Below, one piece after another: positions 5,663-30,723 of a stretch of DNA of 44,532 bases. The notes under the pieces were generated by a model. It searched no databases. It was not told the origin of the DNA and worked only from the letters and a program-made list of their open reading frames with translations. Origin of the DNA: Exiguobacterium sp. FSL W8-0210 (GTDB lineage: Bacteria > Bacillota > Bacilli > Exiguobacteriales > Exiguobacteriaceae). Each line of letters opens with the position of its first letter. The stretch's first letter is position 1. Made by a program: the position numbers and the translations under genes. The stretch spans positions 1-44,532 of the forward strand of contig NZ_JBBOUK010000004.1 in the NCBI RefSeq assembly GCF_038006045.1. The letters are read 5' to 3'.

Positions 5663-6052
5663 GTGAATAAAAGGGTACACATTTATCTTCCTGAAAACGT
5701 GGTGGAAGAGATTGATAACTTATCAGAAGAGTTTGGTATTAATCGATCAAACCTGATTGAAAAAGCGTGTCTACAATACATTGAAAACGAAACGAAAGAG
5801 TCGGTAAAAGACTCCATCGTAGCAGATTTAACGAAGGCTCTCGATAATGCACTGGATCCTAAAATTGAACGACTAGCTAAATTATTGTCTAAAGGAGCAA
5901 TCTTCTCAGGGGTAGCCCAAAATCTTCTAATCGAGTATTTAGACGAGGCTACTACATTTGATGTTCTAAGCTCATACACCAAAGCTCGAGTAAAGGCTGT
6001 AGAGGATCTAAAAAAACCATTTGAGACAGTGATGGGAGGCGGTCTTAAATGA
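5663..6052 (+). CDS. ribbon-helix-helix relaxosome accessory protein
   Basis: A 129-residue protein whose N-terminus (KRVHIYLPENVVEEIDNL, then INRSNLIEKA) is a typical ribbon-helix-helix DNA-binding domain; the rest is helical and probably binds the relaxase. GTG 5663 is chosen because AAAGGAGGTGAT is ideally spaced for it, whereas ATG 5642 has a weak site. It overlaps the relaxase by 4 nt (ATGA), which suggests coupled translation. Likely role: binds oriT and recruits the relaxase, like MobC or Aux proteins. Confidence 0.8.
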   Translation: MNKRVHIYLPENVVEEIDNLSEEFGINRSNLIEKACLQYIENETKESVKDSIVADLTKALDNALDPKIERLAKLLSKGAIFSGVAQNLLIEYLDEATTFDVLSSYTKARVKAVEDLKKPFETVMGGGLK

Positions 6053-8460
6053 ATTCTCCTTTGATAGTGAAGATGCGGTTTAAAACTCCTACAGCAACGA
6101 ATCAGAAGTTGAATCGTAATTATGCGACGTACATTGCAACTCGACCAGGAACAGTCATGAATAATACAAAAAGCGTATTAGATGAGTTTTCACCTGAAAC
6201 GGCTGCAGGACATGTCAAATATGCATCTGAAAGACCTGGATCACATGGACTTTTTGGAAAAAGCCAAGATGAAATTATTTCACTTACTACTATTCAAAAT
6301 GAATTATCAAAGCATAAGGGGATTGTTTGGCAGTACATAATTTCATTAAGGGGAGATGATGCAGCCAACCTTGGATTCGAAAAAAAAGGAGATTGGGAAA
6401 GATTCATGCGTGCTACAACCGATCAAGTCTTTAAAGAGATGGGCATCAATAGTAGCAATGGAAAATGGGTAGCAGCTTACCATGAAGAATTAGGACATCC
6501 TCATGTGCATCTAATGATGTGGGAGAAAAACCCTCAAAAAGAAGAAGGAAAACTAGATCGTAAAGAAATGAGAAATGTACGAAATATTTTTCTGAAGCAT
6601 ATTGCTAAAGAGGAACGACAACAGCTAAATATTTTAAAAACAATAAGTAGAGACAACATTGGTGAAGTTGCAAAACAGCTTTTAGATAAGAGTGTTCTAA
6701 GTCTTGTCGGAAAAGAGAGTGACATTCCAAATGAAATTAAGCTGGAACCTAAACAACTAAAGGCAGTGTATGCAGAGTTTAATCAACTTGCAGAGATGAT
6801 CCCTACTAAAGGACGACTTGCATACGGGTATATGCCTGAAGAGGTTAAAACAGAATTGAATAATTTCTCGAAGTGGATACTAAACCAACCACAGTTTAAA
6901 TCTGAAATGTCTAATTATCTTGAAGCCGTTCAAAAATTAGCGAAGTTTCATTTGAAAGACGAACAAAAAATTGAGGACTCTACAAATAATGCTCTCAAGG
7001 ATTTAGAAAAGAGACTATCAAATCAAATTTTAAAATCGGTTGATCTATATCGGAAATCAAATCGTGTAGAGGTAAAGCAAAAAAACGTTCTAGATTTTGA
7101 ACAGGCACTTTTGAATTCTAAAGCTCCTATTAAGTCTTTGGAGAAACAAGTAACTGAAGTTACGAAAAGTCTTTTACTAGATAAGGGCTTGAATAAGAAC
7201 GAAATGGTTAAGGTGTTTGAAGAATTGAAAGAAAACGCCGGGATGGGAATAACGCTTAAGGAGTTTCTAGACACTAATAGAGTAGAGGTAACCAATGTTG
7301 AGTCTAAAGTAAGTGACTTAGCAATGTATTCACCTTTTCTGAAAGCTAAATTTAATCTCGATGCACCTTCAACAAACTTAAGTAAGAAATTAAGCATGAA
7401 CAAAATGGAGTGGGAAATGCTAAAGCGTTCCTTGAATTTAAAAAGCGAACCACCATTTGAAGTTGTACGGAAATTAGAATTACTAGTTGAAAAGAAGGAA
7501 CTTACTCAAGCACTTTCAAATATGATTTTGTCTGAACATGACATGAGAAATACGGTGTTCAAACAATTGATTATTATGAAAGAGGCTAATATAGATCCGA
7601 CTAAGCAACTATCCGTATTAAAAAATTGCTTAGAGAAAAATAATATACAGTTTGAATCACAATCTAACTGGATTGAACAACAATTTAGTAAAGTAGCGAC
7701 TCAAAAGTTCATGGCCGGACAAAATGTCTGGACTAAGCTCACAAATGAATCTGGATTAAACATGAAATATCCATTCTCGAACACATATGAGTTTAGCCCA
7801 AACAGGGAGAGCGCAGTTAAAGTCCTTCGGGAAGTAGAGATGAAGGTTGATAAGAGTAACCTTGAATCATTATCTCCAAGTCACATCAAGTCACTTCAAA
7901 AGCTCATTGATCTGTCAAAAGTGACGTTAGAAAATCCAGACTTGAAGCAACTCCTGGAACGAAAAGGACAGAAAAACCAAAAAATCATCAATTTAAATGC
8001 TCTTAACGATAAATGGGAGCTAAAAAACACTGAGCGTATCACTTTAAACAGAGCAGCTACAGTGCTCATATCAAGTGGGATGGACGAACAACAAGTTACT
8101 GCAGCATTGAGTAAGTGGAACATTAATACGCAAAGTCAGATTCCAGAGAAAAATATTAAGGCTGTAGTAAAGGCTGTAAACAGCAGAAATTTAGAAATGG
8201 AAAGATACGGAGGGAATGTATCGCTTACTAAACAAGAGTACAGATATATGCTCTCAGATTTAAAGTTAAGTGGTCTAAAGGACGTTTATAACTATCCAAA
8301 AGAAAATGTACAGATTAGTGTAATTACGGATTTATGGAAAGGTGCATTTAAAGGGCTTCGAAATGATATCAACCAATCGGAGTACGAAGCTCAAAGAAGA
8401 CTTCGTAGAAGATTGATCAAAGAGAAGAACAACGAGAGGAAGAACTCACGGGAAAGGTAA
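6049..8460 (+). CDS. MobL-type relaxase
   Basis: An 803-residue DNA-nicking enzyme for conjugation. The N-terminal catalytic part has NRNYATYIATRPG (Tyr25 and Tyr28 are candidate nucleophiles) and the metal-binding motif HEELGHPHVHLMMW, with His150, His152 and His154. These fit the MobL family first described for plasmid pLS20. The remaining roughly 550 residues are helical and charged, with a very basic C-terminus (RRLRRRLIKEKNNERK). It is coupled to the RHH gene upstream and followed 9 nt later by the coupling protein. Confidence 0.88.
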   Translation: MNSPLIVKMRFKTPTATNQKLNRNYATYIATRPGTVMNNTKSVLDEFSPETAAGHVKYASERPGSHGLFGKSQDEIISLTTIQNELSKHKGIVWQYIISLRGDDAANLGFEKKGDWERFMRATTDQVFKEMGINSSNGKWVAAYHEELGHPHVHLMMWEKNPQKEEGKLDRKEMRNVRNIFLKHIAKEERQQLNILKTISRDNIGEVAKQLLDKSVLSLVGKESDIPNEIKLEPKQLKAVYAEFNQLAEMIPTKGRLAYGYMPEEVKTELNNFSKWILNQPQFKSEMSNYLEAVQKLAKFHLKDEQKIEDSTNNALKDLEKRLSNQILKSVDLYRKSNRVEVKQKNVLDFEQALLNSKAPIKSLEKQVTEVTKSLLLDKGLNKNEMVKVFEELKENAGMGITLKEFLDTNRVEVTNVESKVSDLAMYSPFLKAKFNLDAPSTNLSKKLSMNKMEWEMLKRSLNLKSEPPFEVVRKLELLVEKKELTQALSNMILSEHDMRNTVFKQLIIMKEANIDPTKQLSVLKNCLEKNNIQFESQSNWIEQQFSKVATQKFMAGQNVWTKLTNESGLNMKYPFSNTYEFSPNRESAVKVLREVEMKVDKSNLESLSPSHIKSLQKLIDLSKVTLENPDLKQLLERKGQKNQKIINLNALNDKWELKNTERITLNRAATVLISSGMDEQQVTAALSKWNINTQSQIPEKNIKAVVKAVNSRNLEMERYGGNVSLTKQEYRYMLSDLKLSGLKDVYNYPKENVQISVITDLWKGAFKGLRNDINQSEYEAQRRLRRRLIKEKNNERKNSRER

Positions 8461-8468
8461 GGTGATCC

Positions 8469-10400
8469 ATGTTAAAAGCAAAGATATTCGTAGTGCTAGC
8501 AATAGCAATAGCAGATTTAATGTTCATTCCATCTCTTTTACGTATTCCTGAGTACATTGATAGAAATCCTGTTGAGACTATTAAAAAATGGGCTTCTTCA
8601 GTTGATCTTATAGAATCCTGGTTCCTAATGCTTGATTCTGAAGTGACATTGAGATTGTTTATGTACGTTCAAGCACCAGTCTTATTGTTTACACTTTCTC
8701 TATTTTTAATGGGACCTATAAAAATAAAAAATGAAAAATTAAAAGGGTTAGGTGGACCTGAAGCGACTGGTAAAGGACAGTTTGGAACTGCTCGTTTCTC
8801 GACTGATAAAGAAATGCAGAAATCTAATGGTACATGGGTCATGACGAATGGAACTCGTCCTGAGTCAGGTGGGGTGGTTCTAGGTATGGACACCAAAACC
8901 GAAAGAGCATATTACGTTCATGATGCCTCACATACTTTACTTTTAGGTTCTACACGGTCAGGTAAATCTCGTAAATCGTTGATGCCTTCAATTTATGTAA
9001 CAGGTAAAGCTGGTGAAAGTATGGTCATAACGGATCCTAAAGGTGAACTGTTTAACCTTACAAGTGGATATCTGAAAAGTGAAGGATACAAGGTAATAAA
9101 AATCGATTTAAGGGATCCAGGAAAAAAGAGCAACACATGGAACCCTATGCAAACAGTCATAGAAGCTCTAAATGATCCGAACCTCTCGAAACAAGATCAA
9201 ATGGCCCTAGCGACTGAACGTGCGCGCGATTTAGCTTACATGATCGTATTCCAAAAAGAGCGAAAAGGAGATCCAATTTGGGCGAATGGTGAGCTTTCAG
9301 TAACTACAGCACTAATTATGTATATAGCGATTGAAGAAACCAACCCGGCAAAACAAAATTTAATTTCTGTATTTAGATTGTTACGTGATTATGGGCAACC
9401 AATCGTTGATCCAGATACATCTGAAGAATACATTCCTCTTAACAATTTAATGATGGAGCTCAATCATGAACACCCTGCAAGGGACGCCTTCACAGTTGCA
9501 GCCTTAGCACCAGCTAGACAACGAGGAAGCTTCTTTAGTGGTGCAGCATCCAATCTGTTATTGTTCTCAGACCCAAACATTGCCTTGATGACTGAGGAGA
9601 ATGATCACCGTCTTGAAGATATAGGAACAGTAAAGTCCGTTGTGTTCTTAGTTATTCCTGATGAAACGACTTCAAGACATTTATTAGCCAGTCTATACAT
9701 TGACCAACTCTATTCGAAATTAGTAAAAGAAGCGAATCATTACGGTGGAAGGTTACCCGTTCAAGTAAATTTCTTCTTGGATGAGTTCGGGAATATGCCT
9801 CAAATTTCAAAATTTGATACCAAAATCACTGTAGCAGCTGGTCGGGGAATGAGATTCACTTTAGCTCTTCAAGATTTGAATCAGCTGAAAACGACATATG
9901 GCGATGCTGCAAAAACTATTACAGGGAACTGTTTAGTTTGGATTTTCTTAAGAACAACTGATTTAGATACGGCTAAAGCCATTTCAGAGAAAACAGGTAA
10001 ATATACCATTTCGACTAATAGCGTATCTAATAACTACAAAAACTTAGAGCCTAGTGGAACGACAAGTACTAGCTTAACAAGTCGCTCATTACTTCTACCT
10101 GATGAAATCGAAAGATGGCCAAGTGGGATGACGCTCGTATTAAGATCAGGGCAATTTCCTTCCAAGTTGACTGCTCCTGATATATCAGAGTGGTCGGCTA
10201 TGAATGAATTCAATAAGTACAAACCAGTAGTCATTGAAAGGAGGAATGCCGAACCTCTACCTAAGGTGATCAAGGTAGTGGAAAAAGAAATGGAAGTCAA
10301 AACAGAAAGTGTAAAAAAAGAAAAATCAGCATTAGATCAAATTCGAGAACTAGAAGGAGGAACTGAAGTAGATGAACTTCAAGAAGAACAAGCAAATTAA
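8469..10400 (+). CDS. virD4: VirD4/TraG-type conjugative coupling ATPase
   Basis: A 643-residue type IV coupling protein that brings the relaxosome to the transfer channel. There are two N-terminal membrane segments (about 3-25 and 55-80). Walker A GSTRSGKS is at about residue 160 and Walker B FFLDEFGN at about 435, with the TraG/TrsK pattern MVITDPKGEL between. The C-terminus is acidic and disordered. The AAGGTGAT site is well placed. It overlaps the next gene by 29 nt. Confidence 0.93.
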   Translation: MLKAKIFVVLAIAIADLMFIPSLLRIPEYIDRNPVETIKKWASSVDLIESWFLMLDSEVTLRLFMYVQAPVLLFTLSLFLMGPIKIKNEKLKGLGGPEATGKGQFGTARFSTDKEMQKSNGTWVMTNGTRPESGGVVLGMDTKTERAYYVHDASHTLLLGSTRSGKSRKSLMPSIYVTGKAGESMVITDPKGELFNLTSGYLKSEGYKVIKIDLRDPGKKSNTWNPMQTVIEALNDPNLSKQDQMALATERARDLAYMIVFQKERKGDPIWANGELSVTTALIMYIAIEETNPAKQNLISVFRLLRDYGQPIVDPDTSEEYIPLNNLMMELNHEHPARDAFTVAALAPARQRGSFFSGAASNLLLFSDPNIALMTEENDHRLEDIGTVKSVVFLVIPDETTSRHLLASLYIDQLYSKLVKEANHYGGRLPVQVNFFLDEFGNMPQISKFDTKITVAAGRGMRFTLALQDLNQLKTTYGDAAKTITGNCLVWIFLRTTDLDTAKAISEKTGKYTISTNSVSNNYKNLEPSGTTSTSLTSRSLLLPDEIERWPSGMTLVLRSGQFPSKLTAPDISEWSAMNEFNKYKPVVIERRNAEPLPKVIKVVEKEMEVKTESVKKEKSALDQIRELEGGTEVDELQEEQAN

Positions 10401-10758
10401 TGTAATGGGGAACAAGATTAAAAAGAATTGGAATGCATTAGTTACTCTATCGCTTGCGATGATGGTTTTAGTCCTTACAAGTCCTTTAGCAGAAGCAGCT
10501 GCTAAGAAAAAATCTACACCGACTTTATTCTCAAACACGAAAACACTTTTAGGTGATGCAGGTGGATGGGTCGTTGGTATTGCCGGAGCTGTAGCAGGGT
10601 TTATCATGATTGGATTGGGTCTCAAATATGCTATGACAGATGATCCAGGTTCACGTAACGAAATCAAGAAACAAATGAAGAATGTAATCATTGGTCTTGC
10701 AATCTGTCTATCGGCAGTGTCATTAATCGCGGTCATCGTAACGTACTACGTAGCGTAA
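10372..10758 (+). CDS. VirB2/TrbC-like membrane protein of the transfer channel
   Basis: 128 residues, with a signal-peptide-like segment ending LAEAAA (about 24-44) then two hydrophobic helices (about 62-82 and 105-126) separated by a polar loop. This is the topology of VirB2/TrbC-like pilin subunits of Gram-positive systems. It starts within the coupling protein gene, about 12 nt after AAGGAGG; ATG 10405 is an alternative. It lies directly before the VirB6-like gene, as expected for a transfer operon. Confidence 0.7.
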   Translation: MNFKKNKQINVMGNKIKKNWNALVTLSLAMMVLVLTSPLAEAAAKKKSTPTLFSNTKTLLGDAGGWVVGIAGAVAGFIMIGLGLKYAMTDDPGSRNEIKKQMKNVIIGLAICLSAVSLIAVIVTYYVA

Positions 10759-10759: not shown

Positions 10760-11632
10760 ATGGGCGGATTCCTTTCAAAAGCAATTAACACGCTATTTGA
10801 AGACTGGATTGATGGAGCTATCGATTTTATTTTAGTGTTACTTGCTCAAATAGGTGGATCTGGAATAAAGATTTTAGAAATGGATATTGTTGTAGATGCG
10901 ATCATATACGCCCAAGGAATAGGGATTACGCTTTTATCTGTTGTTGTAGCAAAAGAGATGTTATTCCGTTACATCCTTCAAGAATCTGGTGATGAGGTTG
11001 CTGACCCAACAAAAATACTCATTCGTGTGATCAAATCGGTAGCAGTTATTATGAGTGTTCCATGGATAGTAACCACTATCTACAAGTTTGGAACTTCTCT
11101 AGCAGTAGATGTAGCAAAACTAGAAGGTGGCGGTTTCGGTAGTCCAGCAGGTAAAGGATCACTGAAGGATATGCTGAAAGCATTCTCAGCATTACAATAC
11201 TTGCCGTTATTTATCTTAGTAATGGTGATCTCAATTGTTATTTTGATGTTTATTATTGTCATTCAAGCATCAATTCGTGCAGCTGAGTTGGCTTTTCTAG
11301 CTGTTGCTGGTTGTTTCATGGCGGTATCTCTAATGAACCCCAACAGTGAAATGTATTCCTCATGGTGGAGACAACTACTAGCAATATCGCTAGCACAAGC
11401 TTCACAGCTATTGTTAATAAAAATAGGATTCGAGTCTTTACAGACCATGTTTAAAGGTCCAGAAGAAGCCTTATTAGGATTCTGTTTGTTCTTTGGTGTA
11501 CTAATTGTAGCTGTTAAAGTACCAACGATTCTCAAAGAACACATTCACTCTACAGGTACAGGGAAAATGGGATCAAACAGTGGTCAACAATTTAGTATGA
11601 TGGCAGTTTCAAGAATGGTCATGAAAAAATGA
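10760..11632 (+). CDS. virB6: VirB6/TrbL-like polytopic channel protein
   Basis: A 290-residue protein with about six membrane helices (roughly 20-40, 50-72, 92-115, 140-170, 178-200 and 235-255). It begins 1 nt after the previous stop codon with a poor ribosome site, which suggests translational coupling. Gram-positive conjugation operons place such a protein just before PrgI and VirB4. It would form part of the inner-membrane pore for DNA transfer. Family assignment rests on topology and order. Confidence 0.72.
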   Translation: MGGFLSKAINTLFEDWIDGAIDFILVLLAQIGGSGIKILEMDIVVDAIIYAQGIGITLLSVVVAKEMLFRYILQESGDEVADPTKILIRVIKSVAVIMSVPWIVTTIYKFGTSLAVDVAKLEGGGFGSPAGKGSLKDMLKAFSALQYLPLFILVMVISIVILMFIIVIQASIRAAELAFLAVAGCFMAVSLMNPNSEMYSSWWRQLLAISLAQASQLLLIKIGFESLQTMFKGPEEALLGFCLFFGVLIVAVKVPTILKEHIHSTGTGKMGSNSGQQFSMMAVSRMVMKK

Positions 11633-11640: not shown

Positions 11641-11991
11641 ATGAATTTCGATTTAGAAAAGATGATGAACCAACAAACTGAAACAAAATACATCATTCCC
11701 AAAAACATTAAAGCTAGATTCGAAATTTTCGGTATAGGATTGCGAGAAATCATCGCAATCCTCATTGCCGGAATAGTTGGACTGCTTATCATTTCAACAG
11801 TAGATCTAATTGTTGATGTAAAAGGTTTGGTAAAGGCATTGGTCGTTTTAGTTTTTGGTGGTGTTTCATTCTTACTTATTGTCGAAGATCCAAGAGAAGG
11901 TGTATCGGTCATAAAGTTTGTTCAATACTATAAAGACTTTCTAAAAAGACCTAGAAAGTATCTATATTCGAAACTTGATAGAGGTGAATAG
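11641..11991 (+). CDS. prgI: PrgI-family (VirB3-like) protein
   Basis: A 116-residue protein with a short N-terminal cytoplasmic part, two adjacent membrane helices (about 36-56 and 62-82), and the tail motif FVQYYKDFLKRPRKY typical of PrgI proteins. PrgI is the Gram-positive counterpart of VirB3 and partners the VirB4 ATPase. AGGTGA gives a good start. Its stop overlaps the region that carries the ribosome site for the next gene, which starts at ATC. Confidence 0.85.
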   Translation: MNFDLEKMMNQQTETKYIIPKNIKARFEIFGIGLREIIAILIAGIVGLLIISTVDLIVDVKGLVKALVVLVFGGVSFLLIVEDPREGVSVIKFVQYYKDFLKRPRKYLYSKLDRGE

Positions 11992-11993: not shown

Positions 11994-12647
11994 ATCTTTA
12001 CATTTAAAAGAAAAGAAGTAACGACTGAAGAAAAAAATAAGCTTGAAATGAACAGTAATAAGCAAAATGCTCAAAATTGGTTCAATATTTCTGATGTGAA
12101 TGATCAATTGATTTTAAGAAAAGATCAAAAGGTTATTTCACTTATCAGAGTCGGAACAGTAAACATGTCACTTTTATCTAAAACCGAAAAGGACATGAGG
12201 ATTCGGCAACTTTTTGAGGTCATGAATGGGATTGACACAAGGTATAAAATCTTTTCAATCGCAAGACCCGTAGATTTGGATGGTTTCATTGAACAACTGA
12301 AGGTAAAACAATCACAAGAACCAATTGGTATGAAGAAAAGACTATTAAGTAATGCCATGTCACATGCGGCCATTATGGCGTCTGGTGGTGAAGCAGTTGA
12401 ACAACAATTCTATCTTTTACTCGAAGGAGATATTTCGACGAATCCAGAGTATGAAAAGAATTCATTGATTCGAAGAACAAAAGAGATTGCAGCTAATTTA
12501 ACTTCAGCTGGATTAGGCGGTCATTTATGTACCAATCAAGAAATCCGAGATCTATTATTTATTTTTTCGAATCCTCAACAGGCAGCTTATGAGAGAGCGC
12601 CACAAGATAACGGACCATATTTTACTAACTATGTGGAGGGTAAGTGA
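11994..12647 (+). CDS. TrsD/TraD-like conjugation protein, probable ATC start
   Basis: About 217 residues, soluble. Its place between PrgI and VirB4 and its size match TrsD/TraD of staphylococcal pSK41/pGO1-type transfer operons. The first ATG (12048) has no ribosome site. The reading frame stays open upstream to ATC at 11994, exactly 9 nt after GAGG of GAGGTGA (11981-11987), and the added residues (FTFKRKEVTT) look like a normal start. Only ATA and ATC are available near that site. The assigned function is by position and is moderately certain; the ATC start is inference. Confidence 0.68.
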   Translation: MFTFKRKEVTTEEKNKLEMNSNKQNAQNWFNISDVNDQLILRKDQKVISLIRVGTVNMSLLSKTEKDMRIRQLFEVMNGIDTRYKIFSIARPVDLDGFIEQLKVKQSQEPIGMKKRLLSNAMSHAAIMASGGEAVEQQFYLLLEGDISTNPEYEKNSLIRRTKEIAANLTSAGLGGHLCTNQEIRDLLFIFSNPQQAAYERAPQDNGPYFTNYVEGK

Positions 12648-12649
12648 AG

Positions 12650-16010: not shown

Positions 16011-16127
16011 TTGACCTTATTACCAAGTATAGGAATTTACTTTAGTTAGTTTAATTGGTATCCTATATATAGGAAGAAAAGCGGATAAAAGCATTCAAAT
16101 GCCTATATCATAGGGAGGAAATGTTTT
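16011..16127 (+). promoter_or_regulatory. regulatory gap before secreted-protein genes
   Basis: A 117-nt gap carrying an imperfect dyad (CCTATATATAGG at about 16063-16074) with matching AGTATAGGAA upstream, and an AGGGAGG ribosome site. TTGACC at 16011 has no convincing -10 partner. An internal operator or promoter is plausible but not proven. Confidence 0.35.
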
Positions 16128-20205: not shown

Positions 20206-20654
20206 GTAAAATGATTTGGTTTGGTTTGGCAGTATCAATTTTCACTATGTGTTTTGCTTTTCAAATTGATACCACTGTTTTAAATGCCAGCATGATTGAT
20301 AATCGTGATGCTGTTAAACAAGCCTCAGAAGCTTCAATTCAGAGAGCAATCAATAAGGGTACACTTCGCGTGAGTGAAAGAATTGAAATTGACCAATCTG
20401 TATTTAATAAGGAATATGAAGACTTTTATAAATCAAATAACGATTTTAATTACGAAGGTAGTACTAGGAATTTTAAAGTCGTTAAATTTAATACCTCTCC
20501 TGCAATGGTAGCAGTTGAAGGAGAGGTAACAAATAAATCTACATTTATGAAGACCACTAAAGATGAAGATGAAGACGTTAGCCTAGTATTTAAAAATATC
20601 GTTATTTATGAATCTAAAAGTAAGATCAAAATGCCTGGAGGTAACGTAGATTGA
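20202..20654 (+). CDS. TadE-like single-span pseudopilin
   Basis: 150 residues with one N-terminal membrane helix (about 4-24) and an extracellular domain with predicted strands. The layout is that of TadE/TadF-type minor pilins or the similar small proteins of Firmicute Tad loci. It overlaps both neighbours by 4 nt, so it is tightly coupled with the adhesin-like and CpaB-like genes. Confidence 0.6.
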   Translation: MSKMIWFGLAVSIFTMCFAFQIDTTVLNASMIDNRDAVKQASEASIQRAINKGTLRVSERIEIDQSVFNKEYEDFYKSNNDFNYEGSTRNFKVVKFNTSPAMVAVEGEVTNKSTFMKTTKDEDEDVSLVFKNIVIYESKSKIKMPGGNVD

Positions 20655-21526: not shown

Positions 21527-21537
21527 GGAGGGTTTAC

Positions 21538-22338: not shown

Positions 22339-22352
22339 AGGAGTGAGAAAAA

Positions 22353-23789: not shown

Positions 23790-23800
23790 AGAGGTGACAG

Positions 23801-24718
23801 ATGAACCTGTTGATTTCACTATGTTTACTCGTTCTTGTATACACATTTATACGTGTAGTCCTTCAACCTAAAAGCACGATCTCCGAGTTGATGACTGATA
23901 ACGACAACAGGAACGAAAACAAAATTAGAACTGATGTTACTAAACACTCGAGATATAGTTTAAGTCCAAAGAAGTTAAGAGAGGAAGCACTAGAGTACGA
24001 GTGGGATTTAAGCCCAGTTAAATGGCTACTAATCACATTAGTATCAGTAGTATCAATTTCATTATTTGCTTATTTCAGCTTTGGAAAAGAAGAACTACTA
24101 TTGTTGCTTGGTTTTTCAGGAATAGTTGTTCCAAAAATCTTGTTGAATCACAAGAAACGAAAACATCGAATTGTTTTATTGGATCGACTCTTAGTATTTT
24201 TAAATGCCTTTACTTCTACTTTGTTAGTCACGCACCAACCAGTAAAGGCATTGAAAGAAATTAAAGGATTACAACACCCTACCGTTCAAGAAGAAATTGA
24301 AAAGATTATCATTAGTCTTTCTTCTGGTATTAGTGTAAAAAAATCTTTTGATAATTTAATTAAAAAATATCCTTTTAAGATGCTTAATTTTTATGTCGAT
24401 CAGCTTGACATAGCTATTACCGATGGCGGAAACGACACATATAAAATTTTGACAAGTGTAGTCAATGATATTGAATCAGAGAAAACACTTATAGCAAAAC
24501 TGAAGACTGAATTAGTAAAAGAAAAAAGAGCATTTTATCAAAACGCAGTGTTCGTATTAGCAATGCCCTTTGCGTTTAACTTTATGCCTAAAATTGCTGA
24601 AGCATTAACAGAAAGTTTGCCAGGTAAGGTTGTTATTGTTTTTAATTTCCTTGCAGTCATCGTGATATATTTCATCGTTAGAAGATTGGCAAACTTTAAT
24701 CCTATGTCGGAGAAGTAA
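23801..24718 (+). CDS. tadB: TadB-like inner-membrane platform protein
   Basis: 305 residues with four predicted membrane helices in the T2SSF pattern: one at the N-terminus, one pair at about 80-118 and two near the C-terminus (about 248-298). The middle cytoplasmic helical domain (about 125-240) is typical of TadB. It follows cpaF and precedes tadC, the canonical order. Confidence 0.85.
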   Translation: MNLLISLCLLVLVYTFIRVVLQPKSTISELMTDNDNRNENKIRTDVTKHSRYSLSPKKLREEALEYEWDLSPVKWLLITLVSVVSISLFAYFSFGKEELLLLLGFSGIVVPKILLNHKKRKHRIVLLDRLLVFLNAFTSTLLVTHQPVKALKEIKGLQHPTVQEEIEKIIISLSSGISVKKSFDNLIKKYPFKMLNFYVDQLDIAITDGGNDTYKILTSVVNDIESEKTLIAKLKTELVKEKRAFYQNAVFVLAMPFAFNFMPKIAEALTESLPGKVVIVFNFLAVIVIYFIVRRLANFNPMSEK

Positions 24719-24730
24719 GGGGGGAATAAT

Positions 24731-25570
24731 TTGGAGCTATTTATAGCAGCAATTCTGTTCATAGTTGTTTCAACAGCACTTTACTTTATCATGACTCCTA
24801 ATAAGGGGGTCACAGCATCTGAAATCTTATTGGAAGGGGGTGATAACCTTACAAATGGTAAGAAGCTTAGTAGAGTGAAAAAATCAGAAGAGAGCATAGC
24901 AGTTACGGATCTTCAGAAAAAACTTATGATTTCTGGAATGAATATGACTGTCAAAAAATTTAAGCAAACAAAGATTTTATATGCAGTCATGTTCACTACA
25001 GCATCTTTATTAGGAGTTGCGATCATTGGTTCACTACAGTTTAAAATCATGGCAGCTGTTTCTCCGTTTTTCTATTTCTACCCTAACTACCAGTTAAAGC
25101 AAAGAATTAAAAGGGCAGCTTGGGAACGAAAATTAGAATTGCCAGGTTACTTGAAAATTGTTGCCACATTGTTAAAGAACCATACACCTTCAAAAGCCAT
25201 TAAAAAGTCGGTTGATTATGCTGGTCCATACTTGAGCCCTCATGTTAATGAGCTAGCCATGGACTTAGAAACTAAACCTGGAGATGACTATGTATTAAAA
25301 AAGTTTGCTAAGAACTTAGACATTGCAGAAGCACACACATTTGTAATTGCTATTAAGCAAGCTTCTGAAGTGAATAAAGAAGGAGCCCTTGCGATTCTAG
25401 ACGATCAAATAGAATTAATGGATAAGTTACGCCAAGAAAATTATAACTATTTGATATCATCTAAACCTTTAGCTTTTGCTAAGTGGAATTTCATTGTAGT
25501 CATGCTGATACTTTTATATCCATTGGTAATCCTATATGTAACTTTTACGCAAACCATGCAATCGATGTAA
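24731..25570 (+). CDS. tadC: TadC-like inner-membrane platform protein
   Basis: 279 residues with a TTG start after AAGGGGGG. It has an N-terminal helix (about 2-19), a central pair (about 80-118) and a C-terminal helix (about 252-275), with a helical cytoplasmic domain in between. It partners TadB beneath the pilus. A 145-nt gap to the first pilin gene follows. Confidence 0.85.
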   Translation: MELFIAAILFIVVSTALYFIMTPNKGVTASEILLEGGDNLTNGKKLSRVKKSEESIAVTDLQKKLMISGMNMTVKKFKQTKILYAVMFTTASLLGVAIIGSLQFKIMAAVSPFFYFYPNYQLKQRIKRAAWERKLELPGYLKIVATLLKNHTPSKAIKKSVDYAGPYLSPHVNELAMDLETKPGDDYVLKKFAKNLDIAEAHTFVIAIKQASEVNKEGALAILDDQIELMDKLRQENYNYLISSKPLAFAKWNFIVVMLILLYPLVILYVTFTQTMQSM

Positions 25571-25715
25571 ACAATGGATTAGGAAAATTAGACTTCGAAA
25601 GGAGTGAAGGCATTAAAACCATCAATTTGTAATAGAAAAAATTAGTGTGATCTATGTAAAAACAATATCAAGAACGAAAAACAAACAACAAACAACTATG
25701 AATGGAGATAGACTA
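25571..25715 (+). promoter_or_regulatory. gap before pilin genes
   Basis: A good ribosome site AAAGGAGTGA (about 25599-25608) is followed by a 6-codon frame from ATT 25614 that soon stops, so it could be a leader peptide or a remnant. The last bases (ATGAATGGAGATAGA) are repeated before the second pilin, showing that the duplicated unit includes the ribosome site. No clear -10 box is visible. Confidence 0.35.
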
Positions 25716-25967
25716 ATGAATTTAATGATTATCTTAACACTTGTATTGCTAATGGTAGCGCTAGCGCAATTGCTAGCACCTAAATGGGTTGCATCTGAAG
25801 TGTCACAAAACTCTTCTGATATCGGTATGTGGATCGTTGGAACAATCTTTGCAGCAATGATGGCGATCGGTATCATCTACGCAGCACTTCAAGGATCATT
25901 CACTAATTATGGAAACCGTTTAAAAGATTCATCTACAAAAATCGATCCTACTACATGGGGTAAATAA
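25716..25967 (+). CDS. putative major pilin, copy 1
   Basis: 83 residues. A hydrophobic leader (about 2-20), then KWVASEVSQNSSDIG, a second hydrophobic helix (about 37-58) and a polar tail ending TWGK. ATG 25716 is chosen because it matches the start of copy 2 and has GGAGAT 9 nt before it; longer frames from 25647 are not credible. It lies at the Flp pilin position, between tadC and the TadE-like/prepilin peptidase genes. The classic cleavage motif with Glu at +5 is not evident, so the pilin call rests on context. Confidence 0.65.
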   Translation: MNLMIILTLVLLMVALAQLLAPKWVASEVSQNSSDIGMWIVGTIFAAMMAIGIIYAALQGSFTNYGNRLKDSSTKIDPTTWGK

Positions 25968-26008
25968 GTTAACTTAAAAAATACTAAAAATGAATTGGAG
26001 ATAGAAAA

Positions 26009-26260
26009 ATGAACTTAATGATTATCTTGACACTCGTATTGCTAACGGTAGTTTTTGCACAATTGCTAGCGCCTAAATGGGTTGCATCTGAAGTATCACA
26101 GAACTCTTCTGATATCGGTATGTGGATTGTTGGAACAATCTTTGCAGCAATGATGGCGATCGGTATCATCTATGCAGCACTTCAAGGATCATTCACTAAT
26201 TATGGAAACCGTTTAAAAGATACATCTACAAAAATCGATCCAGGAACTTGGGGGAAATAA
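26009..26260 (+). CDS. putative major pilin, copy 2
   Basis: 83 residues, almost identical to the product of 25716-25967. Differences are confined to about residues 13-16 of the leader (LMVAL versus LTVVF), one Ser/Thr and one Thr/Gly near the end. Tandem duplication includes the ribosome-site region. An attenuator-like hairpin follows, so pilin expression may exceed that of downstream genes. Confidence 0.65.
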   Translation: MNLMIILTLVLLTVVFAQLLAPKWVASEVSQNSSDIGMWIVGTIFAAMMAIGIIYAALQGSFTNYGNRLKDTSTKIDPGTWGK

Positions 26261-26277
26261 TCGTAACTGATGATGCA

Positions 26278-26310
26278 GAGAGAAGGTGAATACCTCCTCT
26301 CTTGCTTTTA
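26278..26310 (+). terminator. hairpin after pilin genes, probable partial terminator
   Basis: GAGAGaAGGT / ACCTcCTCTC with a GAAT loop, followed by TTGCTTTT. One internal mismatch and an interrupted T-run suggest a leaky terminator that would lower expression of the genes after the pilins. Confidence 0.5.
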
Positions 26311-26333
26311 TCGGTATGAGAGGGGCGTAAAAA

Positions 26334-26729
26334 TTGCAAAACACCGTTGCAACTGCAATGTTCATCACGTTACTAGTTCTTCTTGTTTTATTGATTCCAG
26401 AAGGTTTGATGATGAGTAACGAAAAAACCAATATACAAAACTTAGCGAATGATGCGGTTGAATTAGCCGAAAGACAAGGTGGTTTTGATTATGAATATGA
26501 AGGTGTTCGACATTCAATTATTGGTCAAATAGAAAGCCGTATGGAAAAAGAAAATCTTGCTGACTATAAGATTACTTACACAAAAGGGCGAGTACAGCAT
26601 AATGAGCCACTGTCATTCGAAATTCAAGGAACATATCGATATGAAATATTCAATTTAATAGGGATAACAAATATGGATTTTTCATTGCACGCTAAGAAAA
26701 ATGGAGTAAGCGAGGTTCTATTTAGATGA
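26334..26729 (+). CDS. TadE-like/DUF4320-like protein
   Basis: 131 residues with a TTG start after GAGGGG. One N-terminal membrane helix (about 7-26) followed by an extracellular domain (NLANDAVELAERQGGF) like DUF4320/TadE-type minor pilins found with Gram-positive Tad genes. It overlaps the prepilin peptidase by 4 nt. Confidence 0.65.
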   Translation: MQNTVATAMFITLLVLLVLLIPEGLMMSNEKTNIQNLANDAVELAERQGGFDYEYEGVRHSIIGQIESRMEKENLADYKITYTKGRVQHNEPLSFEIQGTYRYEIFNLIGITNMDFSLHAKKNGVSEVLFR

Positions 26730-27322
26730 TTAAGTCTCCACTATCTTATTTTTCTTTTAATGAATTATTGGGAGTTTTTTCAGTAGATCAATGGTTGCTA
26801 TTAGGGGCGTTTTTTCTATTCGCGCTATATGTAGTGATGAATTTGTATACAGATATCCAATATAGAAAAACTTCAAACATACAGCATTTGTTTTCGTTAA
26901 TTGTAGGACTAAGCTACTTCAGTTACACACATCAGGGTAGTTTTTTAGTTCTAGTTATTATGTTGATCGGTTTAGTATTTGGGTTGATTTTAGAACGTAT
27001 GAATACCTCGAGTCCTGGAGATACAAAGATGTTTGTTGTTATGAGCGTGTGGATCACTTCATTTGCACAAGAAAATCTCATTTTACATGCTCTAATCTTT
27101 TGTACAATCACTTATTCATTTCAGTTAGCTTTTAGTTGGATTGCATGGGTACGGAAAAAAGGATTAGTTAAAGCAGTGGCTGAACAAAAGGAGCAACTGA
27201 TCTTACTGTTCACTCCAGGAGTATCTTTAGGAAAAGAAGTAATTTTCGAAAACTGGCCGGGGGCTGTTAATATGTGTTTAGGAGCAATATTTACACTATT
27301 AGCAGGGGGATTAATGATGTGA
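26726..27322 (+). CDS. tadV: A24-type prepilin peptidase (TadV/CpaA-like)
   Basis: 198 residues, polytopic (about five or six helices). The two catalytic aspartates fit TDIQYRKTSN (Asp about 43) and SPGDTKM (Asp about 100), the GxGD-type pattern of aspartic prepilin peptidases. It would cleave the pilin and TadE-like leaders. It overlaps the next gene by 4 nt. Confidence 0.82.
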   Translation: MIKSPLSYFSFNELLGVFSVDQWLLLGAFFLFALYVVMNLYTDIQYRKTSNIQHLFSLIVGLSYFSYTHQGSFLVLVIMLIGLVFGLILERMNTSSPGDTKMFVVMSVWITSFAQENLILHALIFCTITYSFQLAFSWIAWVRKKGLVKAVAEQKEQLILLFTPGVSLGKEVIFENWPGAVNMCLGAIFTLLAGGLMM

Positions 27323-28008
27323 AGAAAATGTGGACTTCTGAGCTTCAAAGAAAAGCAGAGTATAGAATGATTAATGCATTTCTTATCTGTTTGACAGGTC
27401 TTGCTTTATACTACGGGCTTTCAAAATCAAATGGCGTCCTACCAATTATAAGCAAAATAAGCAGCATAATTTTTTTGAGTGGATATTCATACCTGATTAT
27501 TTGCATATTTTTATGGATATACTCCAGGAAAAAAGTAGACCCCGAAAAAGATGGTGACAAACTTAGTAAAGAACTAGGAATAAAAAAGCTCTCTTTCTGT
27601 AAATTGAGTGACGGAAGTTATGAAATGCATCATAAAAAGTATTCAAAACATGAAATGGAAGAAATGATTCGTAAGGGCATGTCTTCTGAGGAAATAATAA
27701 AGTTTTGGAAAATAGATCTCGTAAGTGACTTTAAACGACTCGAGTCGTTTATTAAAGCAAAAGAATTAAAGGGAGAGTCTGTGATCATCCACACCTATAC
27801 ACATATTAAGATGTATAAAACTTGGAACAAAATAGCCCGAGATGCAGGACTTGAATTAGAAGTGATGAAAGGCAATAATCAGAAACCAGTAGGGTTTAAA
27901 TGGCTTATATGGAAAAGGGATGTTTATCTTACAAGTGGTAAGGTAGCCCCAAAAGGTTCTATTCCAACAGAATGGAATAAATATGTGGTGACTTCTAAAG
28001 CCATATAA
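27319..28008 (+). CDS. two-span membrane protein of unknown function
   Basis: 230 residues starting at GTG 27319, which overlaps the tadV stop (GTGA); the frame extends upstream but only inside tadV. Two membrane helices (about 15-35 and 45-65) precede a basic cytoplasmic domain with many Lys, Trp and Tyr residues. I recognise no family. As the last tightly coupled gene of the Tad run, it may be a plasmid-specific accessory. Confidence 0.6.
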   Translation: MKKMWTSELQRKAEYRMINAFLICLTGLALYYGLSKSNGVLPIISKISSIIFLSGYSYLIICIFLWIYSRKKVDPEKDGDKLSKELGIKKLSFCKLSDGSYEMHHKKYSKHEMEEMIRKGMSSEEIIKFWKIDLVSDFKRLESFIKAKELKGESVIIHTYTHIKMYKTWNKIARDAGLELEVMKGNNQKPVGFKWLIWKRDVYLTSGKVAPKGSIPTEWNKYVVTSKAI

Positions 28009-28142
28009 AGACGCATTTCCAACTACCAATTATTGGTTCGTATTGCATCTTTATATCACTTTGTGACATTATGAAGTTAGAAAAGTCTTCTTCTTCATAA
28101 CCTGTACACGAAGAAAATCTTTAGAAAGAACAGGGATGCTAT

Positions 28143-28535
28143 ATGCCATTTAAAACATTTGCGGTACGCAATGAAGTAATCCTACCTATCCATTACCTTA
28201 GAGGCTTAAGCAAGTTAAAAGAAAAGGAAATGGGATGGAATGAAATTTTTGATAACGGTCTTGGAGTGGTTAAAGAAATCAAGGAACGAAATCATAAAAT
28301 AATTGCCCCACCAACAACCGGTGTACGAAAAGAACGAATGGGACATGATTTTAAGGATGGCGTTTTTGATGAAATGAAAGTATATGCAAAGCATTTTGGC
28401 TTGAAACAGGCTGAATTGATCGAGTTGTTTGCTTGGATATACTTTTCCACTCAATTTACTGAACAAGAAAAAGAATTCTTTCGACTAAATGATTGGGTAT
28501 TTTATGTAGAAAGTGATTCTGATACTGAACAGTAA
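28143..28535 (+). CDS. hypothetical protein
   Basis: A 130-residue soluble protein without a signal peptide or known motif, with a possible helical DNA- or protein-binding segment (EMKVYAKHFGLKQAELIELFAWIYF). AGGGATG is a modest ribosome site. The 134-nt gap before it holds an ATGAAG/CTTCAT hairpin (about 28071-28100). Confidence 0.5.
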   Translation: MPFKTFAVRNEVILPIHYLRGLSKLKEKEMGWNEIFDNGLGVVKEIKERNHKIIAPPTTGVRKERMGHDFKDGVFDEMKVYAKHFGLKQAELIELFAWIYFSTQFTEQEKEFFRLNDWVFYVESDSDTEQ

Positions 28536-28585: not shown

Positions 28586-30214
28586 ATGATGCTAAAAATT
28601 AAACTAGCTTCTTTTGCAGTTAAGCATTGGAAGGAGCTAGCGGGCGCAGTAGGTGTAATCTTAGCGATTATTCTTACTGTGCCTTTTCTTGTCTTTACGG
28701 GCTTTATGCCAGGAGGAGAAGAAGACAAGGTAAAAGAATACGCGAATGTAGCTAGTGAATTCGGTATAGATTGGCAAGAACTCATTGCATTTGACATGGT
28801 GCGTTTTGATAATGATCTAGATAAGGGAGATCCAGAAGAAGCAGCATTGTATTTTATTGAGTTGAGCGTAGAAAAATTAAAGATAGAGAATGTCAAATGT
28901 GAAAAGAAAAATAAGAAAGGCGAGTGCATTAAAGGCGGAGGAACTGTAGAAAAGGTTATATCTAAAAAGAACTACAAAGGTAAGAATCAAATTTTATCTT
29001 TTATAAAAAGTAGTGGTGGGAGCACGAAGAACATAGCAGAATCGCTAAGAGAAATTGGTGCTAAATCAACATATAGAGTATCGATGTCTTCACATGGAAT
29101 TGACGAAGCTATGAATCTTGCGAAGTTTACTAAAGTGATGAAAAGAGACGTCAAGCGTATTCTTGATAGTGGGATGCTCATGGAGATGTATCCTGATCTT
29201 CAATCAGTATCAGGAGGGATTGGTCTTTGTATTGGTGACGTGGCTCCTGGAGGAAGTGCTAAAGGTGTCACAGACAACGTGAAAGGCTACAAGTCCCTTA
29301 TTGAAAAATATGCAAAGAAATATGGCGTAGAACAATATACAGGATGGCTTATGGCTATGATGCAACAAGAAAGTTCAGGAATGGGAACGGATCCAATGCA
29401 AGCTTCAGAAGGTCCATATAATACGCGATATCCTAAAGGACCTAATGGTATTCAAAATGCTGAATACTCAATCCAGGCAGGTGTACAAGAGTGGAAAGCA
29501 TCGATACAAAAGGCTGGAGGCGACATGATGATCGCTGTTCAAACCTATAATTTCGGTGGCGCTTTCTTACCCTGGATTAAGTCACACGGAAACAAATATA
29601 CACTAGAAAAAGCACAAGAGTTTTCTAAGTACTGGTGTTCGTCACACCCCTCTCAATTAGGATGCGGTGATGGGGTACACGGAACACCTCAACATGCCAT
29701 GATGGTGTTGAAGTATTATAACAACCCTGGTAAAGCATCATGCGATTCGATGGGTGGAGATTTCATTGTAGGTAAGGGTGATTTCATTTCACCTATGCCA
29801 AAAGATACTTACACTAAAGGTACCTGGCATCAATTTAGATCGCCAGCATGGCACGCAGGTGTTGATTTGAACGTTCATTCTTGGGCAGATGAAGGGAAGA
29901 TTGGGATCTATTCGATTGCTGCAGGCAAAGTAACTAGAGCAGAATACTCATCTTCTTACGGAAATGTTGTATATATCAAGCACAAGGTGAAAGGTAAAAG
30001 TTTTGAGTCGGTGTATGCTCATCTAGCTTACACGCCGTTAGTTAAAACAGGGATGAGTGTCAAGCAAGGACAAAAGATTGGAATGGTAGGGAATACGCCT
30101 GGAGTACCATGGTCCACTTTCCCACACTTACACTTTGAGGTACATTCTCCAGCCTGGACTGTCGATAAAAAGAATGCAATTAATCCAGAACTAGTAGTAA
30201 AGGGGCTGTTTTGA
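28586..30214 (+). CDS. lytic transglycosylase/M23 peptidase (VirB1-like)
   Basis: 542 residues. A membrane helix (about 20-42) anchors the protein. A lysozyme-like domain (about 225-370) has its catalytic Glu in MMQQESSG, with the EYSIQAGVQEW...YNFGG pattern of CwlT/phage-type transglycosylases. A C-terminal M23 zinc peptidase has HAGVDLN (about 423-429) and HLHFE (about 514-518). Two-domain wall hydrolases are standard in Gram-positive conjugation, where they open a hole in peptidoglycan. AGGAGA is the ribosome site. Confidence 0.9.
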   Translation: MMLKIKLASFAVKHWKELAGAVGVILAIILTVPFLVFTGFMPGGEEDKVKEYANVASEFGIDWQELIAFDMVRFDNDLDKGDPEEAALYFIELSVEKLKIENVKCEKKNKKGECIKGGGTVEKVISKKNYKGKNQILSFIKSSGGSTKNIAESLREIGAKSTYRVSMSSHGIDEAMNLAKFTKVMKRDVKRILDSGMLMEMYPDLQSVSGGIGLCIGDVAPGGSAKGVTDNVKGYKSLIEKYAKKYGVEQYTGWLMAMMQQESSGMGTDPMQASEGPYNTRYPKGPNGIQNAEYSIQAGVQEWKASIQKAGGDMMIAVQTYNFGGAFLPWIKSHGNKYTLEKAQEFSKYWCSSHPSQLGCGDGVHGTPQHAMMVLKYYNNPGKASCDSMGGDFIVGKGDFISPMPKDTYTKGTWHQFRSPAWHAGVDLNVHSWADEGKIGIYSIAAGKVTRAEYSSSYGNVVYIKHKVKGKSFESVYAHLAYTPLVKTGMSVKQGQKIGMVGNTPGVPWSTFPHLHFEVHSPAWTVDKKNAINPELVVKGLF

Positions 30215-30723
30215 TGGGGTACAAACGATTTATTTTAATTTTAATCGGTACGTTTATAGTTACGACCACCTTGATCATTACAGCTGCAGTAAAAATTGGT
30301 GAAATAAGACATGAAAAACAGGAGGTTGAGACTGCTAATAATAACTCTCAAGAGCCTCTCTCTACATTTTTACATGAACTTCCTAAAGTGAACGTAAAGA
30401 GTAGGGCTGAAGAGTTCGGTAAATCGGTTGTAGATGGATATTCTTTATTTAGCTACTTCTCACCTGAAGCCTTTGGGGTAAAGGGATCACCTGAGGTAAT
30501 TGAAGGCCCAAATGGAGAGAGCCCAGAAGAGATGGATCAATTAATTATGGATAAGGTGAAACCATATGGATTTGTAAAGGAGTATAAGATAAAACAAATA
30601 AAAGAGATTGAGAGTAATACTGAAGCTTTATTTGAATTCACTACGGCTAAAGAAAAAGTGTATGAGGTAAAGCTTTTATACAATGATAAAGGGCTAATAA
30701 TCACTAAAATAGTTACGGATTAA
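30214..30723 (+). CDS. single-span protein at end of transfer block
   Basis: About 169 residues. One N-terminal membrane helix (about 6-28) and an extracellular domain with alternating strands and helices (YGFVKEYKIKQIKEIESNTEALFEFTT) that could adopt an NTF2-like fold as in VirB8/TcpC proteins. ATG 30214 overlaps the previous stop by 1 nt and follows AAAGGGG. The VirB8-like role is inference from topology and position. Confidence 0.5.
   Translation: MGYKRFILILIGTFIVTTTLIITAAVKIGEIRHEKQEVETANNNSQEPLSTFLHELPKVNVKSRAEEFGKSVVDGYSLFSYFSPEAFGVKGSPEVIEGPNGESPEEMDQLIMDKVKPYGFVKEYKIKQIKEIESNTEALFEFTTAKEKVYEVKLLYNDKGLIITKIVTD

Follow-up and report, generated by a model that had tools for sequence, protein, structure and literature searches.

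A Tad-like pilus locus within the transfer run of an Exiguobacterium plasmid: a probable mating-contact device with relatives across Bacillota

How Gram-positive donor cells find and hold their recipients during conjugation is an open question. It is raised by contig NZ_JBBOUK010000004.1 of Exiguobacterium sp. FSL W8-0210 (44,532 nt; the entire contig was analyzed and is called the window here), in which genes for a type IV secretion system (T4SS) and for a Tad-type pilus lie in one run. Gram-positive T4SSs have been described as having neither VirB11 homologues nor conjugative pili, and the T4SS of Patescibacteria, said to be able to make pili, is named as a possible exception (2025 review, PMC12857230; PMC numbers here and below refer to excerpts of the cited papers). 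Tad genes are present in many Gram-positives (PMC3244431). Our analysis indicates that the Tad-type pilus and an adhesin encoded with it probably form an element-encoded mating-contact device, working like the thin pilus of IncI plasmids. The functional tie of the Tad block to conjugation is better supported than it was from the window alone, because the composite recurs over several Bacillota families and the measurable core genes are under purifying selection.

The closest match in the plasmid collection was pEYLC1.2, a complete circular 49,168-bp plasmid of Exiguobacterium acetylicum. Its order of transfer and Tad genes is identical to that of the window, and partition and primase-like genes are common to both. 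All listed genes from 5642 to 30723 are on the + strand, with several overlaps and a maximum gap of 134 nt, in the order MobL-VirD4-VirB2-VirB6-PrgI-TrsD-VirB4-TadZ1-SH3-p934-Tad-VirB1. Family calls were judged by Pfam curated cut-offs, some also by NCBIfam. The initial annotation had described a MobL/VirD4/VirB2/VirB6/PrgI/TrsD/VirB4 set followed by a Tad set and a VirB1-like hydrolase, an arrangement confirmed by the Pfam matches and the co-directional run. Relaxase, VirD4 and VirB4 thus occur together, and VirB6- and VirB1-like parts are also present. The transfer genes are:

5642..6052, + strand: ribbon-helix-helix (CopG) protein, probably an auxiliary relaxosome component or a regulator (RHH_3 33.5 bits, above cut-off)
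6049..8460, + strand: MobL-family relaxase (PF18555 72.9 bits; the pEYLC1.2 orthologue is annotated MobP3)
8469..10400, + strand: VirD4 coupling ATPase, CD1115 family (PF02534 208.7 bits)
10372..10758, + strand: VirB2-like T4SS pilin, T4SS_pilin/TrbC (PF18895 47.5 bits)
10760..11632, + strand: VirB6-like protein, TrbL_4 (PF19597 151.6 bits)
11641..11991, + strand: PrgI/VirB3-like protein (PF12666 22.7 bits, under the cut-off of 27)
12048..12647, + strand: TrsD-like protein resembling the N-terminal part of VirB4 (NCBIfam VirB4_plasma 33.9 bits and TrsD 23.9 bits, both under cut-off, which for TrsD is 200)
12644..14494, + strand: VirB4 ATPase, P-loop_TraG (PF19044 52.5 bits, over cut-off; NCBIfam VirB4_plasma 392.8 bits over residues 11-610, under the cut-off of 590)
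28143..28535, + strand: conserved protein of 130 aa, o130 (shared with Parageobacillus and Exiguobacterium p4)
28586..30214, + strand: VirB1-like cell-wall hydrolase, Lysozyme_like and M23 (PF13702 118 bits, PF01551 74.8 bits)
30211..30723, + strand: 170-aa protein with a single transmembrane segment, final gene of the run (from sequence)

No VirB8/TcpC-like part was recognized among the window proteins by Pfam, or by a search for solved relatives of the last of these, which returned none that was significant. From its topology, we conjecture that this protein might be a candidate for a VirB8-like role.

The Tad block and the secreted proteins within it are encoded as follows:

14703..16010, + strand: first TadZ-like protein, 435 aa (no Pfam match)
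16128..17381, + strand: secreted protein with three SH3 domains, 417 aa, possibly wall-binding (PF08239 135.3 bits, three stretches)
17401..20205, + strand: p934, a 934-aa secreted multi-immunoglobulin (Ig)/coiled-coil protein (family alignment; conserved C-terminal base)
20202..20654, + strand: DUF5411, TadE/F-like membrane protein (23.8 bits, under the cut-off of 30)
20651..21526, + strand: RcpC/CpaB (PF16976 46.9 bits, cut-off 28.8; SAF 25.7 bits)
21538..22338, + strand: TadZ/MinD-like ATPase (AAA_31 27.5 bits against a cut-off of 27; marginal, broad family)
22422..23789, + strand: CpaF/TadA motor ATPase (T2SSE 94.6 bits)
23801..24718, + strand: TadB platform protein (T2SSF 16.7 bits, under the cut-off of 25.2)
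24731..25570, + strand: TadC platform protein (position and family profile; no Pfam match)
25647..25967 and 26009..26260, + strand: two tandem small Flp-like pilin-like proteins (alignment of 18 pilins)
26334..26729, + strand: DUF4320, TadE-like pseudopilin (PF14208 52 bits, over cut-off)
26726..27322, + strand: probable prepilin peptidase (two Asp motifs, T-D and G-D)
27274..28008, + strand: o244, fast-evolving probable two-helix membrane protein (starts inside the peptidase gene)

The near-complete Tad set of the initial annotation stands for CpaB, TadZ, CpaF and DUF4320, which exceed their Pfam cut-offs; DUF5411 and TadB fall below theirs, and TadC, the pilins and the peptidase are unmatched. 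The names of the first TadZ-like protein, TadC, the pilins and the peptidase come from position, conserved relatives and motifs, and these proteins gave no relevant family match in Pfam or NCBIfam, with unrelated sub-cut-off matches at most. Relatives lend context to several assignments. A homologue of the first TadZ-like protein adjoins the Tad block in Parageobacillus, Bacillaceae C02, Priestia and Exiguobacterium p4, the DUF5411 gene is conserved near p934 and CpaB, o244 homologues adjoin several other Tad blocks, and the Parageobacillus orthologue of TadB is annotated T2SSF. The CpaF-like ATPase was also considered as a VirB11, which was rejected, as it scores 149 bits to solved CpaF versus 78 bits to VirB11, a difference of about 70 bits.

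In the 18-row pilin alignment a charged leader ends at -1 in Gly (16 rows) or Ala (the two from G320), and a hydrophobic stretch comes next. For DUF4320, 5 of 22 rows carry a G-F-x3-E-Y motif (G376 twice, G242 and both Brevibacillus plasmids); two of these five relatives, when run against Pfam, matched no family, TadE included. The T-D and G-D motifs of the peptidase are invariant in all 13 alignment rows. The window protein has no Pfam A24 match, its profile match to a true A24 peptidase is weak (1.2%), and its structural model is of low confidence with no clear match in the PDB. In both Brevibacillus plasmids DUF4320 has as its neighbor a genuine A24 peptidase gene (52.7 and 76 bits), which supports the assignment made by position. 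Besides the plasmid set, the host encodes a chromosomal peptidase for type IV pili as well as related ATPases, and VirB4 occurs on two more of its contigs, neither with a CpaF; the plasmid Tad set is therefore not simply the cell's own.

Of the "two large secreted proteins" noted initially, one has indeed 934 aa, and the other, the SH3-repeat protein, has just 417. We propose that p934 is a tip or surface adhesin. Its AlphaFold model consists of Ig-like domains and a pair of long helices and is confident only after about residue 330; in the family alignment the C-terminal part is best conserved and the N-terminus is variable. A C-terminal LPxTG-like motif was found in none of the window open reading frames of at least 100 aa.

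Does the combination occur elsewhere? Relatives were found by profiles built from the window's own genes, and the search suggested with the initial annotation, for other plasmids with VirB4 and CpaF together, showed that the composite recurs across Bacillota families. The Tad set with a large p934-like secreted protein is present in other plasmids and in chromosomal elements, the list comprising Parageobacillus, Virgibacillus, Priestia, Bacillaceae C02, Brevibacillus, Paenibacillus, an Enterococcus contig, two Bacilli metagenome-assembled genomes (MAGs) and other Bacillota genomes. An accident of one plasmid is therefore rejected, since the set or much of it recurs in many Bacillota. False VirD4 and VirB4 profile matches were rejected for the ten that were checked, 5 of 5 and 5 of 5 being over the Pfam cut-off. 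The position of the Tad block differs between elements. It follows VirB4 in Exiguobacterium and lies between VirD4 and VirB6/VirB4 in Parageobacillus (VirD4-TadZ1-p934-Tad-VirB6-VirB4-VirB1). It stands between VirB4/VirB1 and VirD4 in the two chromosomal copies of G320 and in G376b (VirB4-VirB1-p934-Tad-VirD4), as well as in the Brevibacillus marinus plasmid (VirB4-hydrolase-p934-Tad-peptidase-ParM-VirD4), and precedes VirB4 in G335 (p934-CpaF-TadB-TadC-DUF4320-VirB4-VirB1).

Three further arrangements were observed. Two Bacilli MAG contigs on a different CpaF branch (L078 and L087) have DUF5411, CpaB and TadB/C, followed, about 7 kb beyond CpaF, by TrsD and VirB4. A 31-kb plasmid of Heyndrickxia oleronia (L134) carries two pairs of an S-layer-protein gene and a p934-like gene, with identical protein accessions. 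On an 85-kb Bacillus pumilus plasmid (L135), the p934 relative adjoining CpaF is annotated as a thioester-domain protein; such proteins are known among covalent Gram-positive adhesins.

The association with T4SS genes was counted in a census of genomes. This CpaF type occurs in 4 of 38 genomes of the family. With p934 matches of at least 100 bits, 13 loci were found in 11 of 398 Bacilli genomes, and at 12 of them VirB4 and/or VirD4 lies within about 27 kb of CpaF on the same contig (both at 11 of 13); the exception is G118, and G059 has VirB4 on another contig. The elements behind the p934 profile had initially been detected via CpaF, and the CpaF searches had already yielded 8 of the 13 loci, two of them equated with named plasmids from length and coordinates. 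Four of the five new loci (G376 twice, G242, G226 and G118) are composite, G376 and G242 being close kin. Weaker p934 matches occurred in seven census genomes, of which G056, G156 and G335 were inspected and G394, G065, G146 and G104 left out; G156 has p934 and no CpaF in the stretch read. A further genome search matched 15 genomes besides the source, and G570 and G731 were inspected.

As controls we took the 20 next-best CpaF loci of the class, one of which was the B. marinus plasmid again, so that 19 were used. None of these 19 ordinary Bacilli Tad loci has VirB4 or VirD4 on its contig at a distance of up to 100 kb; 8 of the 19 contigs do not reach that length. The same genomes contain a VirB4-type match somewhere in 13 cases and a VirD4-type match in 6. 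Among 80 distant CpaF loci with flanks of at most 10 kb, 3 have VirB4 or VirD4, namely two Bacilli MAGs (VirB4) and one Enterococcus contig (VirD4); this comparison is not quite level, as several composites have VirB4 or VirD4 beyond 10 kb.

Plasmid records gave a similar count: CpaF is found in 10 of the 11 that carry p934, VirB4 in 9, VirD4 in 9 and both of the latter in 8. The Heyndrickxia plasmid has no VirB4 or VirD4, and the part that was read, 26.1 of 31.5 kb, contains no CpaF. Another search returned 16 plasmid records, 6 of which matched only the N-terminal part of the Priestia protein and were left out. According to MOB-suite as given by PLSDB, ten of the 11 p934 plasmids are non-mobilizable and one is mobilizable, a blind spot given that 8 of the 11 carry VirB4 and VirD4.

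In a CpaF tree of 87 rows the composite labels require 6 changes, compared to 24.5 for shuffled labels. A 49-row clade that holds all 19 Bacilli controls includes only two composite-labeled rows, G056 and G118b, both lacking an adjacent T4SS gene; of the 39 distant controls in the tree, 11 are placed with the composite rows. The tree was made by a quick method, has long branches and used 39 of 77 distant controls, and its 29 composite-labeled rows take in G056, G118a, G118b, C02 and B. pumilus, all without VirB4 or VirD4 in the analyzed stretch. With six near-duplicate elements excluded, the distances of CpaF and those of VirB4 are correlated (r=0.61, p=0.003, n=11).

If the pilus serves mating, how has it evolved on the element? 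The comparison set consisted of four Exiguobacterium plasmids sharing the backbone, of which G033 is the closest. In 500-nt windows, identity to G033 is 88-98% from 5501 to 20000, 69-82% from 20001 to 28000 and 88-95% from 28001 to 31500. The divergent block and the spacer at its right border are:

20145..28004, + strand: exchangeable Tad-core cassette (divergent block, with its borders taken from the comparison with G033)
28009..28142, + strand: non-coding spacer adjoining the cassette's right border and containing a small palindrome

Change points against G033 fall 60 bp short of the p934 end, at 20145 (from 95% to 77%), and where o244 ends, at 28004 (from 73% to 93%). The log-likelihood gain at the left border is 284, versus at most 8.2 in 200 shuffles, a test that covered the left border against G033 only. 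A sharp left border at 20145 is found in the G033 comparison only: compared with G028 the right change point is likewise 28004 and the left is at 19736. The best points against pEYLC1.2 are 21466 and 27784, with a much weaker left signal (gain 24.8), because pEYLC1.2 has diverged over much of the run. The spacer 28009-28142 is near-identical in four plasmids (mean column identity in the DNA alignment 95%, gene ends included). Kinship also shifts along the run: most of the Tad core groups pEYLC1.2 with G028, and MobL groups the window, G033 and pEYLC1.2. The Tad core has thus been exchanged, or retained as old alleles, as a single unit. A raised mutation rate as the source of the divergence was rejected, since in the comparison with G033 the divergence stops sharply at each border and identity in the flanks is 93-95%.

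G320 is an independent case of Tad-core exchange. Its two chromosomal copies share about 15 kb, with 1-kb windows over VirB4, VirB1 and the p934 base rounding to 100% nucleotide identity; the Tad core, on the other side of p934, is just 65-76% identical. The two G320 copies of p934 are 56-72% identical over residues 1-300 and 94-100% thereafter. Similar behavior is seen in G376 and G242, termed Brevibacillus-like because they belong to the same family as the genome holding the B. marinus plasmid. In the pairs G376a/G376b and G376b/G242 the first 375 residues of p934 are 41-60% identical and the remainder 80-100%, except for a short final window; G376a and G242 have one head type in common. Much of the upstream region encoding other secreted proteins has no nucleotide match to G376b. 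A variable p934 head on a constant base is thus observed in two other lineages. A result that does not fit is that the Tad core has not diverged in the Brevibacillus-like pairs, with amino-acid identities of 91-100% for the genes from DUF5411 to DUF4320 and 88-95% for VirB4, VirD4 and VirB1. Neither type of exchange is seen in every lineage: the Tad core in Exiguobacterium and G320, the head in G320 and the Brevibacillus-like group.

The ratio of nonsynonymous to synonymous substitution rates (dN/dS) is 0.03-0.15 for seven of the eight genes from DUF5411 to DUF4320 in pairs with unsaturated dS, DUF4320 being unmeasurable. It is 0.14-0.18 for the peptidase and 0.27-0.39 over six pairs for o244, the fastest of the measured run genes; since dS is high, all these ratios are rough. 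The measurable Tad core genes are under purifying selection. That the Tad block is a decaying or chance acquisition and non-functional is highly improbable, given that Tad open reading frames persist in all four Exiguobacterium plasmids and the core dN/dS is low where measurable, even if several parts are very divergent from described families.

The mating-contact device could operate as follows. MobL would nick the plasmid, VirD4 would pass it to a channel of VirB4, VirB6, VirB2 and PrgI, and the VirB1-like enzyme would open the wall. CpaF would power TadB/TadC, with CpaB and TadZ, to extrude short Flp-like pilins processed beforehand by the plasmid's own peptidase. The pilus would display p934, perhaps the SH3 protein too, and p934 would bind the recipient. 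Retraction or adhesion could then draw the cells together so that the T4SS can act. Expression, pilus assembly, the location of p934 on the pilus, recipient binding and a need for the pilus in transfer are what we infer here. A mating-pair pilus with an adhesin would be expected to look like this locus because it is built by the element and kept with VirB4/VirD4, and because its exposed part and pilus allele are exchanged.

A more far-reaching proposal is that mating types based on pili exist among conjugative plasmids and integrated elements of monoderms. The Tad core and the head of the large tip adhesin would be exchangeable cassettes on near-identical transfer backbones, setting which recipients are gripped or which pilus-targeting phages are avoided, with the fast-evolving o244, which moves together with the pilus allele, as the matching exclusion or specificity factor. 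We regard this proposal as tentative and, on balance, doubtful; a role of o244 in exclusion or specificity is itself only a guess.

Several observations weigh against the mating-device interpretation. On the side of the parts, nothing relevant matches TadB, TadC, the pilins or the peptidase above cut-off, and the Exiguobacterium pilins carry an additional N-terminal hydrophobic stretch. The usual Flp prepilin motif is G-x4-E-Y/F; in the 18-row alignment the window pilins have no Glu at +5, for which reason the filament system is classed as Tad-like instead of as a canonical Flp/Tad pilus. The fold match of p934 is uninformative and its head is invariable across the Exiguobacterium set. On the side of association, on E. 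acetylicum plasmid p4, which carries both, the Tad genes form a separate block in the opposite direction to VirB4, Bacillaceae C02 has VirD4 and lacks VirB4, and G118 has Tad genes and p934 with neither VirB4 nor VirD4 in the genome. Among 11 distant loci with DUF5411 and CpaF, 2 have VirB4 and 9 have neither VirB4 nor VirD4 in often short flanks. Two distance comparisons were not significant, those of CpaF with VirD4 (r=0.19, p=0.08, n=13) and of p934 with VirB4 (r=0.28, p=0.09, n=8). Finally, the Tad block may be transcribable separately, via this element:

16011..16127, + strand: conserved promoter-like spacer, 117 nt, preceding the secreted proteins and the Tad block

The spacer is strongly conserved in the DNA alignment of 4 of 4 related plasmids and agrees by eye with 8 of 12 sigma-A consensus positions, which is below the promoter scanner's threshold. 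No terminator-like site was found between genes on the + strand within 5000-33000, and the counts of such sites are no higher than in shuffled sequence (8 vs 7.8 and 6 vs 6.6). Own promoters together with strong terminators between the blocks had been named initially as an argument against a common operon. This holds by half at most, because a promoter is possible and no terminator was seen.

The pilus might instead be mere cargo, i.e., an adhesion or biofilm trait that benefits the host cell, is carried in the operon for co-expression and has no mating role. Tad loci are often plasmid-borne, more so than any other type IV filament system in the comparison (PMC6668835), and the tad plasmids of Cutibacterium acnes have been read as possible host-colonization factors (PMC5696575). 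The promoter-like spacer and the set in G118 without VirB4/VirD4 fit as well. Cargo would, however, hardly settle at different sites inside the transfer operon in different genera, nor stay with VirB4/VirD4 at 12 of 13 strong loci when 0 of 19 controls do so, and we consider this explanation unlikely.

We judge it quite improbable that the Tad motor, platform and pilus form part of the DNA conduit itself, a chimeric channel in which CpaF does the work of VirB11, as proposed for the PAPI-1 element of Pseudomonas aeruginosa. Gram-positive systems are said to lack VirB11 and a related motor is present here, PAPI-1 transfer depends on a type IV pilus (both PMC12857230), and no VirB8 was recognized among the window proteins. 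In such a channel, however, the VirB2, VirB6, PrgI-like and VirB1 genes would be redundant; moreover, the ATPase is nearer to CpaF than to VirB11, and p934 resembles a surface protein rather than a channel part.

The reading as a mating-contact device can be compared with known systems. Closest in kind is the IncI thin pilus (R64, TP114), where, as in the window, a type IV pilus locus lies beside a T4SS on a conjugative plasmid, and where, as in the p934 family, an adhesin has a constant and a variable part (PMC9045228). PilV variants of IncI plasmids set recipient specificity, and the TP114 thin pilus is needed in broth and gut and not on solid support (PMC9045228). IncI systems differ in being Gram-negative, with PilS/PilV and a shufflon that varies the PilV C-terminus, whereas the window has Tad-type parts in a monoderm, inside the transfer operon. 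The IncI thin pilus is of the T4b class. Unlike PilV, the p934 family has its variable head at the N-terminus and varies between elements; an in-place inversion system was not searched for. A serine resolvase is encoded at 32904-33506, not adjoining p934, and inversion sites were likewise not searched for. The analogy with the R64 thin pilus drawn initially is strengthened by two observations, an exchangeable pilus cassette and, in other lineages, a secreted protein with variable head and constant base.

PAPI-1 resembles the window in that VirB4/VirD4 are accompanied by a type IV pilus, which in PAPI-1 is needed for DNA transfer (PMC12857230). There, only VirB4 and VirD4 are clear T4SS parts, whereas the window adds VirB2, VirB6, PrgI-like and VirB1. 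The linear plasmids of C. acnes are the Gram-positive counterpart, with tad genes near VirB4-, TcpC- and FtsK-like genes, and their authors left the link of the pili to conjugation unclear (PMC5696575). Compared by description rather than by sequence, they differ in being linear, from Actinobacteria and with tad downstream of a different set, and the excerpt does not mention the p934/DUF5411/DUF4320 family (PMC5696575). The tra region of pAW63 from Bacillus thuringiensis has a VirB11-resembling gene beside VirD4 and VirB4 homologues; also compared by description and not by sequence, it differs in that no pilus set is mentioned in the excerpt (PMC9673590). Gram-positive T4SSs with surface adhesins (PrgB of pCF10, and others) share the VirD4/VirB4/VirB6/VirB1 type of backbone, but in the excerpted review they are described without a pilus and without a VirB11-type ATPase (PMC12857230), and the window has a near-complete pilus set. 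In the Kil system of Myxococcus a Tad pilus cooperates with part of another secretion machine where cells touch, and several tips affect partner recognition (PMC12075869). It differs from the window in serving predation, in a Gram-negative, with a partner like a type III secretion system instead of a T4SS.

Our searches of the open-licence PMC literature turned up no paper on composite elements of this family, on exchange of their Tad core or on the heads of p934. Type IV pilus-aided conjugation as a kind is known already, and the C. acnes tad plasmids and the VirB11-like gene of pAW63 are partial precedents. New here are the Tad core as an exchangeable cassette with sharp borders relative to the closest relative, and the variation of the p934 head in two other lineages.

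Outside the run, the two copies of a 300-nt direct repeat (39777-40076 and 44083-44382, 98% identical, 4.3 kb apart) flank a stretch of small unknown genes and a DUF4062 gene; pEYLC1.2 likewise has two DUF4062 genes. An abortive-infection-like gene (AbiJ_NTD4/Abi_C, 34594-35586) is present in pEYLC1.2 also. A 35-nt repeat (91%; 72-106 and 419-453) stands directly before two genes and resembles a shared leader. In the Parageobacillus plasmid a Fic gene is found downstream too, possibly a toxin-antitoxin pair tied to transfer.

If the mating-device interpretation is true, recurrent elements that carry a Tad-type motor, platform, pilins and a surface protein in their transfer operon would change the picture of how Gram-positive donors find and hold their recipients.

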